This document shows positions 15,465-22,571 of a DNA stretch of 22,571 nucleotides, one piece after another (positions within the stretch are counted from its first letter, which is position 1; each line of letters opens with the position of its first letter). The translations under genes and the position numbers were made by a program. This stretch comes from a virus. The stretch covers positions 1 to 22,571 of IMG/VR virus record IMGVR_UViG_3300021959_000431. The stretch is one strand, 5' to 3'. Under the pieces are notes generated by a model that was not told where the DNA came from, searched no databases, and saw nothing but the letters and a program-made list of their open reading frames with translations.

Positions 15465-15706
15465 ACAAGGTCGCCTTCTACTTCAATTTCATCGCAAGTA
15501 AATTTAGGATATAATTTATATTGATTAATATTGTCTTTATCGAAAAATTTTTCGGCGTATAATATCTCATATGACTCAGAAAGTCCAGCTCTTACACATT
15601 CATAGTGTGTATCAAATGTTTTTGGATATATATAAGGCTCATTATTGGGGATAATACATCTTCCATCAATTGCTGAACAAATAAAAATTGTTAAAAAGAA
15701 TTCCAT
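15461..15706 (-). CDS. Small exported Cys-containing protein on the minus strand
   Basis: Eighty-one residues read against the neighbours. The start MEFFLTIFICSAIDG is a short hydrophobic, signal-like segment; four cysteines (positions 10, 17, 37 and near 70) and segments YPKTFDTHYECVRAGL and YPKFTCDEIEVEG suggest a small disulphide-bonded periplasmic protein. It is arranged head to head with the regulator at 15775, across a 68-base divergent region, and has no clear ribosome binding site. Its acidic, aromatic composition and regular reading make chance unlikely, but it is less certain than the coupled plus-strand genes. Confidence 0.6.
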   Translation of the reverse strand: MEFFLTIFICSAIDGRCIIPNNEPYIYPKTFDTHYECVRAGLSESYEILYAEKFFDKDNINQYKLYPKFTCDEIEVEGDLV

Positions 15707-15715
15707 TGACTTGAC

Positions 15716-15743
15716 TTGACTTTTTATTTTAATATCCTATATT
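15716..15743 (+). promoter_or_regulatory. Promoter of the small-gene operon, preceded by triple TTGAC repeat
   Basis: TTGACT (15716-15721), 16-base spacer, TATATT (15738-15743). The -35 box is the third copy of a perfect TTGAC direct repeat (15706-15710, 15711-15715, 15716-15720). The spacing and both boxes match the promoter at 6423-6450. GGAG precedes the regulator ATG at 15775. The repeats reach into the start codon region of the minus-strand gene at 15706. Confidence 0.65.
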
Positions 15744-19767: not shown

Positions 19768-19905
19768 ATGAGAAAACAATGTCAACAGTGTAAAGAAGCA
19801 TTTGATGCAAAAGATGAGTTAGACAACTTTTGTAGTGATGATTGTAAACAAGAAGCTTTAGCAGCGTTAGATTCTAATTCTGATGAGTGTCTTTCTTGTC
19901 AGTAA
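19768..19905 (+). CDS. 45-residue Cys-rich, probably zinc-binding protein
   Basis: ATG 19768 after TAGGAGG, TAA 19903-19905. Six cysteines are arranged as CQQC, CSDDC and CLSC in an acidic chain, able to bind one or two zinc ions. It is the last plus-strand gene before terS; the two genes overlap tail to tail by 32 bases (19874-19905), which is a modest caution. Confidence 0.62.
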   Translation: MRKQCQQCKEAFDAKDELDNFCSDDCKQEALAALDSNSDECLSCQ

Positions 19906-20410
19906 ATTCAAATTGATCATTAGGAATTGATTTAACTTTATCTTTCAATTCTTCAACTTCAACACCTTCTAGGATCGGTGAGTATTCATTGATGATTGTC
20001 TTCAGACGATTTTCTAATTGTTCTGCTGATAAGTCTTCAAGCTTACCGGTCCTAATTATTTTTTGTTCAACATATAATCCGGCAGCTTTACCACGTGCAA
20101 CTTCAGCATTAATTGCAGCTGACCATGCACCTTTTTTTCTAGACTCTTCTCTAAGTTTTGCTAACTCAGTTATATGTCTTTCATAAGTGACTTCGTATTT
20201 TTTTTGATATTCTTCTCTTAATTCTCCAATGTATTGTACTACCATTGGATATTTCTGCGGATTAGTTAGTTCTGATCCTGTAATTCTAGCTCTGTCTTTT
20301 GCATAACCGGCGTCAATGGCACATTCGTATTTAGTTTTACGACCTTCATTTGCAACTAACTCTAGTGCAAATTTTTTCTGCATTTCTGTTAATTCTTTTT
20401 GTCTTCCCAT
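19874..20410 (-). CDS. terS: Terminase small subunit
   Basis: A 178-residue protein with the N-terminal DNA-binding pattern of small terminases: LTEMQKKFALELVANEG, TKYECAIDAGYAKDRARITG and SELTNPQKYPMVVQYI (helix-turn-helix with the AGY motif), followed by a Lys/Glu coiled coil (ITELAKLREESRKKGAWSAA) and an acidic C-terminus. TerS oligomers recognise the packaging site and hand the DNA to the large subunit, which is not in this window. It is on the minus strand while most genes are on the plus strand. The 36-base divergent gap before it (20411-20446) has no strong ribosome binding site; a TTGACT on the plus strand (20413) overlaps TATAAC and is not a clear promoter. Confidence 0.88.
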   Translation of the reverse strand: MGRQKELTEMQKKFALELVANEGRKTKYECAIDAGYAKDRARITGSELTNPQKYPMVVQYIGELREEYQKKYEVTYERHITELAKLREESRKKGAWSAAINAEVARGKAAGLYVEQKIIRTGKLEDLSAEQLENRLKTIINEYSPILEGVEVEELKDKVKSIPNDQFEFTDKKDTHQN

Positions 20411-20676: not shown

Positions 20677-21045
20677 TTGAAACCGGAGTCAAAATTTTAT
20701 GCAGAAATTAAAAAATATTTTAAAGAATTTAGTCTCATTCGACTTGAAAATCTTAGTCTTGCCGGTACTCCTGATCTATTGGTCTATAATAATAATCGGC
20801 ACTTTTTCACTATAGAGCTGAAAGTAACAACTGGTAACAAAATAAGGTTTTCACCACACCAAATTGCCTTTCATATGAGGCATCCTCTGAATACATTTAT
20901 CCTAGTTAAGCACCTCGCTTCTAGTTCCTATAAACTTTATGAAGGAAAGAAAATTCAGGAGCTTGTCGCTCGTGGCTTGTCGCTTGATGCTTGCTGCTCG
21001 GGGCTTGAAGCTTGTCGCTTGAGACTTTCAGAGCTTGGCGCTTGA
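20677..21045 (+). CDS. VRR-NUC-like PD-(D/E)XK nuclease with TTG start
   Basis: A 122-residue protein. The only usable start is TTG 20677 (AGAAGG upstream). Motifs of the VRR-NUC/Holliday-resolvase-like fold: Glu4 in PESKFYAEI, GTPDLLV (Asp33), IELKV (Glu47, Lys49) and SPHQIAFHM. Family members cut branched or flap DNA; phage copies are thought to resolve recombination intermediates. From about residue 95 the chain is encoded by 7-bp tandem repeats (20961 onward), giving an unusual tail (ELVARGLSLDACCSGLEACR), and the TGA stop at 21043-21045 is itself made by a GCTTGAC repeat unit. The natural protein may have ended soon after residue 94 before the repeat array arrived (inference). Confidence 0.8.
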   Translation: MKPESKFYAEIKKYFKEFSLIRLENLSLAGTPDLLVYNNNRHFFTIELKVTTGNKIRFSPHQIAFHMRHPLNTFILVKHLASSSYKLYEGKKIQELVARGLSLDACCSGLEACRLRLSELGA

Positions 21046-21152
21046 CGCTCGTCGCTTGAAGCTTGTTGCTTGCTGCTTGAAGCTTCCTTCTCTTCTCTCG
21101 CTCTCCTCCTGAGCTCTTCGTAATACTTCGGATGTCGGAAGACGTGGCCCAT
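20955..21152 (-). CDS. 65-residue basic protein with repeat-encoded tail
   Basis: The ATG at 21152 comes two bases after the stop of the Gp88-type gene, so it is the last gene of that minus-strand operon. The first 24 residues (MGHVFRHPKYYEELRRRARE) look like a genuine small basic protein. The remainder is a Ser/Ala/Gln-rich tail with a seven-residue period (QASSDE, then QASSPE and QASSDK), the direct consequence of 7-bp units read in 21-base blocks. The final 91 bases are antisense to the nuclease gene. Function unknown. Confidence 0.5.
   Translation of the reverse strand: MGHVFRHPKYYEELRRRAREEKEASSSKQQASSDERQAPSSESLKRQASSPEQQASSDKPRATSS
20961..21087 (+). repeat. Tandem 7-bp repeat array, GCT(T/C)GNN
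   Basis: Sixteen full 7-base units of the form GCTTGNN or GCTCGNN run head to tail from 20961 to 21081: nine units (20961-21023), a degenerate nine-base break (21024-21032), seven units (21033-21081) and a partial GCTTCC (21082-21087). The last two bases vary (TC, TG, AT, CT, GG, AA, AG, GC, AC, TT). The array codes for the C-terminus of the VRR-NUC protein on the plus strand and of a 65-residue protein on the minus strand. Confidence 0.9.
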
Positions 21153-21154
21153 CT

Positions 21155-21760
21155 TTAGTGTGCAAGATAGGCAACGTTTTTAACAGAAGGATCCCAGCAC
21201 GCTCTACAATCTAAACACTTGTTATCTTGCTTCGATGCTGGACATGTAGCCTGAGCCGGCTCTGTTACAACCGTTGACGTGTTGTTCCAGTTTCCAGCTG
21301 CTGGCTGGTTCACCATTGGCATGGAGAATCTTAGAGTCAAGTTACTAGGCGCTCGGTCCTGGTATTTTTGCGTCCACGCTTCACGTGTTGGCAACCAGTG
21401 CTTCACCCCTGGCGTGAGCTTTGCAACTTTATAAATTTTTGCTAGATGCTTCAAGCTCTGCAGGTCTCCGGAGTCGTGCCATCTAAAATATTTTGCTTTC
21501 TTTGAATTGATCAGGGCCGCCATAGCTCGAACCCATAGCGGGTTATCAATTGCTTTTAGTCTTCGATATTGTGCTGCTTGAACAACCGGAAAAACGTAAC
21601 AACCTTTTGTTGCGTAACATCCTTCACACGTTGACCCAATAATATCCTGCAGCTTCTTCCCAGTCTTGCATTCTGCCGCGGGTATACCATAGGCCCAGCC
21701 CGGCATTTTAGAAGGCTTGCTCAGGCCTCCCACTAATTTTAAAGCTTCATTTGTTTTCAT
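21155..21760 (-). CDS. Gp88-family phage protein
   Basis: I place the start at ATG 21760 (201 residues), after AGAAAGG and one base after the stop of the upstream gene; a GTG at 21793 would overlap that gene. The sequence matches the Gp88 pattern of mycobacteriophages and other phages: GLSKPSKMPGWAYGIPAAEC, then CEGCYATKGCYVF, YRRLKA, FRWHDSGDLQS, HWLPTREAW and NLTLRFSMPM, with a C-terminal Cys cluster (ATCPASK, NKCLDCRACW). Function of the family is not established to my knowledge; the cysteines could bind zinc or an iron-sulphur cluster. Codon use is clearly GC-richer than in the left 20 kb, suggesting separate acquisition. It is the third gene of a four-gene minus-strand operon. Confidence 0.85.
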   Translation of the reverse strand: MKTNEALKLVGGLSKPSKMPGWAYGIPAAECKTGKKLQDIIGSTCEGCYATKGCYVFPVVQAAQYRRLKAIDNPLWVRAMAALINSKKAKYFRWHDSGDLQSLKHLAKIYKVAKLTPGVKHWLPTREAWTQKYQDRAPSNLTLRFSMPMVNQPAAGNWNNTSTVVTEPAQATCPASKQDNKCLDCRACWDPSVKNVAYLAH

Positions 21761-21761
21761 A

Positions 21762-21974
21762 TTATACCTTTCTGTTAAATCTGTTTTTAACACGCTTGCC
21801 CGGTGTGTGCAATAATTTTTTACAGCTTGCCGCTTGTAGCTTGACGCTTGCCGCTTGCTGCTTGGCGCTTAGATCTTTAAAAAATTTCTTACAGCTGGCC
21901 AGGTAGGACCGGGGCAGCTGGTGATGCGGTTCAATAAAATAGCGCAGCAGGTTATTGTGTGATTTATAATTCAT
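21762..21974 (-). CDS. 70-residue protein with repeat-encoded middle
   Basis: ATG 21974 overlaps the stop of the upstream 58-residue gene (ATGA), and its TAA is one base before the Gp88-type ATG, so it sits in frame of an operon on both sides. The N-terminal half (LLRYFIEPHHQLPRSYLASC) looks like a true protein; residues about 35-51 (SAKQQAASVKLQAASCK) are encoded by the 7-bp array at 21825-21873; the end is basic. No family recognised. A frame kept open by repeats is possible, but tight packing on both sides favours a gene. Confidence 0.52.
   Translation of the reverse strand: MNYKSHNNLLRYFIEPHHQLPRSYLASCKKFFKDLSAKQQAASVKLQAASCKKLLHTPGKRVKNRFNRKV
21825..21873 (+). repeat. Second 7-bp repeat array
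   Basis: Seven units in perfect 7-base register: GCTTGCC, GCTTGTA, GCTTGAC, GCTTGCC, GCTTGCT, GCTTGGC, GCTTAGA. A lone GCTTGCC also occurs at 21794-21800. Same orientation on the plus strand as the array at 20961, and inside a minus-strand gene. Confidence 0.9.
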
Positions 21975-22147
21975 AGTTCCTCCGGTTTAGTTTTAACTTT
22001 GTAACCCAGCAACTTCAGGATCCTGATATCATCCAGGCTAAAAGTTTTAGTTGGCATTAAACGCGACAGAAGCGTCGACGTCTCACAATCTGGATACAGC
22101 AATTCATTGCCGTAAACATTTTTCTTTTTTACATATATATCTTTCAT
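21971..22147 (-). CDS. 58-residue first gene of the minus-strand operon
   Basis: ATG 22147, TGA 21973-21971. The protein begins with a basic strand (MKDIYVKKKNVYGNELLYPD) and continues with ETSTLLSRLMPTKTFSLDD and a helix IRILKLLGYKVKTKPEEL. It is too short for the usual length filter, but the four-base ATGA overlap with the next gene, a promoter just upstream and normal composition support it. Function unknown; it could be a small regulator. Confidence 0.62.
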   Translation of the reverse strand: MKDIYVKKKNVYGNELLYPDCETSTLLSRLMPTKTFSLDDIRILKLLGYKVKTKPEEL

Positions 22148-22156
22148 AATTTAAAT

Positions 22157-22183
22157 CCTATATCATCCTACAACAATTGTCAA
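22157..22183 (-). promoter_or_regulatory. Candidate promoter of the minus-strand operon
   Basis: On the minus strand TTGACA (22183-22178) is followed by ATTGTTGTAGGATGATATAG, with TATAGG (22162-22157) at a 15-base spacing or TAGGAT (22160-22155) at 17 bases. The -35 box is perfect, the -10 box imperfect. The string TTGACAATT and the GTAGGAT in the spacer also occur at the promoter 6423-6450. The 7-bp array begins immediately behind the -35 box. Confidence 0.5.
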
Positions 22184-22211
22184 GCTTGACGCTTGACGCT
22201 CGTGGCTCGGA
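22184..22211 (+). repeat. Third 7-bp repeat array
   Basis: Four units, GCTTGAC, GCTTGAC, GCTCGTG, GCTCGGA, directly abutting the -35 box of the minus-strand promoter and followed by TCTGCC. Same orientation as the two other arrays; here it is not inside a gene. Confidence 0.8.
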
Positions 22212-22224
22212 TCTGCCTATTTAT

Positions 22225-22258
22225 CCAGGTGAGTGGGCCTGCGCCACTCTTCACCTGG
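22225..22258. other. Stem-loop at the left end of the right-hand non-coding region
   Basis: CCAGGTGA (22225-22232) pairs with TCACCTGG (22251-22258), eight perfect pairs; inside, GTGG (22233-22236) pairs with CCAC (22244-22247) around a GCCTGCG loop, leaving a three-base bulge. No T run follows on either strand, so a terminator is unlikely; a structured RNA or protein-binding site fits better. Confidence 0.65.
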
Positions 22259-22507
22259 ACCATCAGTAATGTGCGCCGGGAGAGGTCAACGCAGTCGCGT
22301 TACAGTTGACATTCGGGGTACCCTTATGCACTCATCCTGGTATAGTGTTTAAACTCACCGCTATCCATTACTGATACCAGATCCTATTTGGCAGTCGCAA
22401 TTGCACTAATTAGTCCAGAGTATCCTCCGGCATCCTAATAGGATCAGGCATCAGTCCCTCTCATAATCCGATACCTAAAAGGTTCGATCAGCAAGGGACC
22501 AATCGAC

Positions 22508-22536
22508 TTGGGGTGATGATTATGATGACACCCCAA
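22508..22536 (+). terminator. 8-bp hairpin near the right edge, possible terminator
   Basis: TTGGGGTG (22508-22515) pairs perfectly with CACCCCAA (22529-22536) around a 13-base loop; ATCTAATTATTTATCTT follows on the plus strand and is T-rich but interrupted. It could end a plus-strand transcript of the non-coding region or be the last element of its structure. Confidence 0.45.
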
Positions 22537-22571
22537 ATCTAATTATTTATCTTAACATAACCAAATAAATA

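Follow-up and report, generated by a model that had tools for sequence, protein, structure and literature searches.

Activators of the PhoB/OmpR type use tandem direct-repeat sites at the -35 box, and in phage P1 the protein PacA binds the hexamer repeats of pac to start packaging. In the omega (ParB)/parS system of pSM19035, contiguous non-palindromic 7-bp units form arrays of 7-10 copies, and several such arrays lie at promoters (PMC9499535). SARP sites consist of two to three copies of a direct heptamer adjoining or touching the -35 box, with 4-bp spacers and an 11-bp period that keeps the copies on the same DNA face (PMC3367932). Here, we compare these systems with arrays of a GCTTGNN heptamer that recur at fixed positions throughout a large family of phages infecting marine SAR11 bacteria. 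Several of these arrays directly precede promoters, and they are probably landing sites of a regulatory protein and not random repeats.

The stretch of DNA analyzed (the window) comprises the 22,571 nucleotides of the IMG/VR record IMGVR_UViG_3300021959_000431. Its DNA polymerase shares 58% identity with the enzyme of Pelagibacter phage HTVC027P and 60% with the 023Pt_psg01 enzyme; for the VRR-NUC-like proteins of the window and HTVC027P, the identity is 61%. Therefore, we regard the window as part of the genome of an HTVC027P-type pelagiphage. The three arrays (A, B and C) lie among the following features:

19874..20410, minus strand: gene for the terminase small subunit (terS), given as context
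20677..21045, plus strand: VRR-NUC-like nuclease-fold ORF, assigned from sequence appearance and matches to PHROG 2165/93; array A forms its last ~28 codons
20955..21152, minus strand: small ORF, HTVC027P gp32-like; array A encodes its C-terminal tail
20961..21087, plus strand: array A; its 16 GCTYGNN units fall into two registers (9 + 7), and no promoter adjoins it
21155..21760, minus strand: GP88-family gene, homologue of HTVC027P gp33 (Pfam PF17338, E 2e-29)
21762..21974, minus strand: 70-aa ORF with a C-terminal tail from array B; relatives recognisable in 14 loci of the first sample
21825..21873, plus strand: array B, six exact units and one degenerate unit (GCTTA), upstream of the GP88-family gene
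21971..22147, minus strand: 58-aa ORF downstream of promoter C, with its ATG at 22147
22155..22183, minus strand: sigma70-type promoter at array C, TTGACA-17-TAGGAT
22184..22211, plus strand: array C, four units, two of them GCTCG; intergenic, its minus-strand reading entering the -35 box

The positions and the common orientation of the three arrays, which had been predicted from the letters of the window, were confirmed, with GCTYG on the plus strand throughout. The predicted unit counts of 16, 7 and 4 held for A and C, whereas B contains six exact units and a seventh that reads GCTTA. The perfect 7-base register that had been described is broken in array A by a 2-base slip: nine units (20961-21023) are followed by ACTTTCA and GA, and then by seven units (21033-21081) in the shifted register, the final element being a degenerate GCTTC. 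The arrays had also been placed inside genes. This is partly true: A covers the 3' ends of two opposed genes, the VRR-NUC-like ORF and the small minus-strand ORF, where these converge, and B covers 3' sequence of another ORF on the minus strand, but C is intergenic and adjoins a promoter. Dinucleotide shuffles did not match the density of the arrays (21 three-unit matches observed in the window versus 0.07 expected). The GC content does climb at the right end of the window, from 31-36% to 42-46%, yet the proposed arrival of the arrays together with a GC-rich segment holds only loosely; the block is an accessory-gene region, which is also present between terS and terL in relatives.

Searches of the window for Rfam families and tRNAs found none. 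The region to the right of array C (22212-22571) is GC-rich and without an ORF or Rfam match; it is patchily conserved (77% over 316 bp to locus L340, with shorter matches to HTVC027P) and may be a structured non-coding RNA. Elsewhere in the window, a perfect TTGAC tandem of 3.4 copies beside divergent genes (15706-15722) looks like repeated -35 boxes. The GP88-family protein carries the invariant cysteine motifs CxxCYA and CRxCW, which are suggestive of a metal or Fe-S site.

Omega heptads resemble the phage arrays in being contiguous 7-bp units at promoters with variable end positions, and in the control of several genes, which is putative in the phage. However, the omega unit is 5'-WATCACW-3' (core ATCAC) and the phage unit NNCAAGC, omega uses direct and inverted units whereas the phage arrays are direct only, and omega arrays overlap promoter regions whereas the phage array ends exactly before the -35 box. 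The omega system also works with an RHH protein and ParA, neither of which was found among the hypothetical proteins of HTVC027P with Pfam and PHROGs (best 25 families). SARP sites share with the phage arrays the tandem direct heptamers at the -35 box, and the heptamer of the SARP PimR, CGGCAAG, fits the phage NNCAAG(C). In contrast to SARP sites, the phage arrays have no spacer and a 7-bp period; promoters have three to seven copies, and array A reaches 16. Among the hypothetical proteins of HTVC027P, the comparison with Pfam and PHROGs showed no cognate winged-helix regulator of the SARP/PhoB type. The hexamer arrays of P1 pac are likewise short repeats near a small terminase gene, but those of the pelagiphages are linked to promoters and not to TerS. 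Omega heptads (PMC9499535) and SARP direct-repeat sites (PMC3367932) are the closest systems in their workings, and the phage arrays fall outside both definitions. Omega has another word and another protein, and SARP sites repeat every 11 bp instead of every 7 bp; we therefore classify the arrays as a variant of the tandem operator at a promoter.

The bare DNA pattern was scanned against 2.9 million viral contigs, and a second sample was picked by protein similarity alone, blind to the arrays. Most contigs among the matches listed share the gene order exonuclease, terS (minus strand), VRR-NUC-like gene (plus strand), array A, GP88 (minus strand), B and C. The expectation that related phages carry such arrays was borne out in the protein-selected sample, in which array A is present at its position in 120 of 131 loci, the samples being nearest relatives and the contigs related and partly redundant. 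Some relatives are without the array block. Downstream of the VRR-NUC-like gene, 334 arrays were counted over 264 kb, all in one orientation with none reversed, and only four arrays were found in 1.03 Mb outside the block. When all 1024 cores X were compared in the pattern XNNXNNX, GCTTG alone recurred (119 of 144 loci; runner-up 16). In complete contigs of up to 63 kb the arrays are confined to a single block, a restriction that speaks against the spreading short element considered in the original prediction.

Additional repeats were observed in the same neighborhood. A hairpin, GCTTGYGGGCGGGTCCCACCC, is repeated downstream of the VRR-NUC-like gene in L294, L072, L126 and L248; its core has 50 matches on both strands in 11 loci, 45 of them within 4.5 kb of the block, and it looks like a small mobile palindrome. 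Just after array A, inside the gp32-like minus-strand ORF, a stem of the form GGACCAGG...CCTGRTCC is conserved, while the sequence in its middle varies; 55 copies are spread over 52 loci, e.g., L026, L024 and L064. In a comparison of L015, L114 and L052 with L026 and L040, array DNA appears to have overwritten the C-terminus of the VRR-NUC-like protein in most lineages, whereas relatives without arrays retain a W..IQ..L tail.

Read on the minus strand, the B and C arrays are (NNCAAGC)n running into a sigma70 -35 box. TTGAC stands exactly +5 after the last CAAGC in 88 of 194 B/C arrays, about half of them being off this exact phase, and in 0 of 173 A arrays. The word before TTGACA is CAAGC in 127 instances on the module's minus strand, and CAAGC is not among the top words elsewhere. 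For 111 promoters chosen by the first unit alone, the further CAAGC offsets were scored; the frequency at -7, -14, -21 and -28 was 0.87, 0.84, 0.62 and 0.41, versus a mean of 0.005 at other offsets, and the units extend upstream with falling frequency over about seven units. The -10 box follows at 17 nt, with TA there in ~86% of 104 promoters. At least three units lie upstream of 74 of 137 TTGACA-N16-18-TAnnnT promoters on the minus strand of the module; none with such units was found on the plus strand or elsewhere. A sigma70 promoter with an upstream array is thus recognizable from its -35 and -10 boxes, a spacer of ~17 nt and a fixed distance to the array. The genes behind these promoters belong to GP88 (96 cases), to the gp34-like family (39) and to more than 30 other small families, unrelated to one another. 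In the window, promoter C is perfect (CGTCAAGC followed by TTGACA-17-TAGGAT), while the -35 box at array B is degraded and without TTGACA; many relatives have array B directly adjoining TTGACA.

In the 57.6 kb of HTVC027P, CAAGCTTGAC is found at two sites only, before gp33 (GP88) and before gp34, and the TAGGAT boxes of these promoters lie at about 17.36 and 17.69 kb of the record. An RNA-seq study of HTVC027P infection assigns gp33 and gp34, and no other gene, to an additional temporal cluster that peaks at 6-9 h; it also states that no early gene has a known function and that the phage lacks its own RNA polymerase. Promoters and repeats are not mentioned by the authors in the text searched (PMC12753301). 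The shared temporal class of gp33 and gp34 supports, but does not prove, that array promoters define a regulon, and as the genes are neighbors, their joint expression could have another cause.

Substitutions were counted in disjoint close pairs with ungapped arrays. Differing sites amounted to 3 of 330 in the core (0.9%), 19 of 100 in NN (19%) and 330 of 5802 in the flanks (5.7%), and the next divergence bin gave 2.6%, 29% and 12%, respectively; a conserved core with variable NN is seen separately in A and in the B/C arrays. Since the core changes far less than the flanks and NN, the alignments indicate that GCTTG is under purifying selection and NN is free. Selection for a spaced core, one of the original suggestions, thus gained support from this conservation, from the fixed positions and single orientation in diverged phages, and from the phase-locking to the -35 box.

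The GCTTG-type runs mentioned for other microbes do exist, but they are of a different nature. In Pseudomonas, Halomonas and other bacteria, GCTTGNN repeats have the same word and period as the phage arrays; unlike these, they consist mostly of identical units (one NN throughout in 98 of 125 arrays), never stand at TTGAC (0 of 125) and include some inverted pairs. Among the bacterial arrays of at least five units, 18 of 125 have an inverted partner within 200 bp (e.g., L150, L168, L196 and L217). That such runs are common in bacterial genomes would suit a mutational origin of the phage arrays, as a slippage-type minisatellite or a functionless spreading short repeat. Neighboring NN are identical at a frequency of 0.88 in the bacterial runs, however, and of 0.077 in the phage promoter arrays, where chance gives 0.079; array A reaches 0.015, with a codon-phase effect (lag-3 excess). 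With bacterial runs ~88% identical from unit to unit and mostly of a single NN, and phage NN varying, we conclude that the phage arrays are not slippage products. The low core substitution in close relatives and the single block in a single orientation also oppose a mutational origin, to which we give next to no credence. A slippage minisatellite was rejected because neighboring units are not near-identical and one part, the core, is constrained.

Repeats near terS are typical of pac sites, and complete genomes have the arrays in the terS-terL interval, so TerS, encoded close by, might bind the heptads to start packaging. Yet L261, whose TerS is 75% identical to that of the window, has no arrays, terL following its VRR-NUC-like gene after just 393 bp, and L262 (TerS 73%) and L300 (68%) are likewise without strong arrays. 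As the arrays do not track TerS type and coevolution with TerS was not found, pac was rejected as the main reading; the exact phase-lock to -35 boxes would also have no reason there, and we judge a packaging site decidedly unlikely. The same exact position relative to the -35 box points to DNA and away from an RNA-level element, in which (NNCAAGC)n or (GCUUGNN)n in transcripts would form Rho-entry sites or sites for a TRAP-like ring protein that end or regulate upstream transcripts. Such a role would fit the constant single-strand orientation and the location of A and B at the 3' ends of minus-strand ORFs, and therefore at transcript ends. But array C need not be transcribed, since no minus-strand gene is annotated upstream of it in HTVC027P, and the free NN leave no constant YC pattern for Rho; overall, an RNA-level role seems unlikely.

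The selected target could instead be the encoded seven-residue periodic tails (LxACxLx on the plus strand, QASSxK on the minus strand), in line with the codon-phase effects in array A and with a VRR-NUC-like tail that can be aligned. We find this highly improbable, given that the tails differ in array-less relatives, 935 of 2465 array-A units lie past the stop, array C is not in a gene and the core is equally conserved in B/C. Promoter-overlapping heptads in several arrays per genome recall omega/parS of pSM19035 (PMC9499535), and iteron- or centromere-like arrays whose binding protein also touches promoters might serve replication or partition. Against this, the phage is described as lytic (PMC12753301), the HTVC027P hypothetical proteins yielded neither ParA nor an RHH protein in comparisons with Pfam and PHROGs, and the block is missing from some relatives. 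The cumulative GC skew of HTVC027P runs flat where the arrays are and does not turn sharply, which gives an origin no support, and a replication or partition site appears very unlikely. Finally, the segments between arrays differ between phages, as expected of cassette linkers or recombination sites; because each segment brings its own promoter, the array reads better as part of an expression unit, and a linker role is conceivable as a side effect.

We consider it likely that HTVC027P-type pelagiphages have in these arrays a cis-regulatory element specific to their family, with the units serving as putative tandem operators or activator sites for a regulon of accessory genes. Tandem NNCAAGC sites on the minus strand, usually three to seven, would lead straight into the -35 box of promoters that are predicted to drive small minus-strand accessory genes in the terS-terL block. 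A phage or host protein probably binds one unit per 7 bp, cooperatively. Since 21 bp make two turns, every third unit would face the same side of the DNA, and the bound protein would determine the timing of accessory-gene expression. The array is located entirely upstream of the -35 box and leaves the -10 box and start site uncovered, so activation by recruitment of host RNA polymerase seems somewhat likelier than repression. Activators typically use 10-11 bp spacing, and the 7-bp spacing, which turns each site by ~240 degrees, is unusual for them. Array A, usually the longest, is without a promoter, which we count against the regulon, as we do the missing TTGACA at array B of the window and the B/C arrays that are off the exact phase. 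Array A could be a second site for the same protein, for example a roadblock for converging transcripts or a remote or looping site; action on some further, unseen target is another candidate role.

Pfam and PHROGs comparisons (best 25 families) revealed no HTH or RHH transcription factor among the hypothetical proteins of HTVC027P. Presence and absence were compared in ten long genomes and then in 79 loci, and gp36, a protein of 63 residues encoded between the arrays and terL, is a weak lead for the binder. It is present in 59 of 61 loci with at least five units and absent from 17 of 18 with at most four (Fisher P = 4e-14, relatedness ignored). Some members of its family reach the Pfam WYL_2 cut-off, and its AlphaFold2 model (pLDDT 91) is all-beta and resembles the WYL domains of PafBC, BrxR and CapW. 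However, the TerL tree holds only about six array changes, with three supported independent pairs, and with so few independent changes linkage in one accessory block explains the association equally well. It is doubtful, though conceivable, that a stand-alone WYL-fold gp36 forms a filament on the 7-bp units and brings host RNA polymerase to the array promoters. GP88 was rejected as a candidate binder: although at least five units are present in 59 of its 65 loci, the other six fall short of that number, and comparison of its AlphaFold2 model (pLDDT 87) with the PDB gave no confident match.

HTVC023P-type phages are described as widespread and abundant on SAR11 (PMC9599517). In the literature searched, nothing was published on gene control in these phages, and no paper was found on seven-nucleotide repeats in connection with terminase, on tandem repeats at pelagiphage promoters or on WYL_2 proteins of phages. 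If the candidate binder proves right, gp36 would be a one-domain, HTH-less activator with heptad operators for a regulon of exchangeable genes. The array itself would be a testable promoter code that marks a small accessory-gene regulon across hundreds of contigs, could account for an unexplained expression class and may serve as bait for its regulator.
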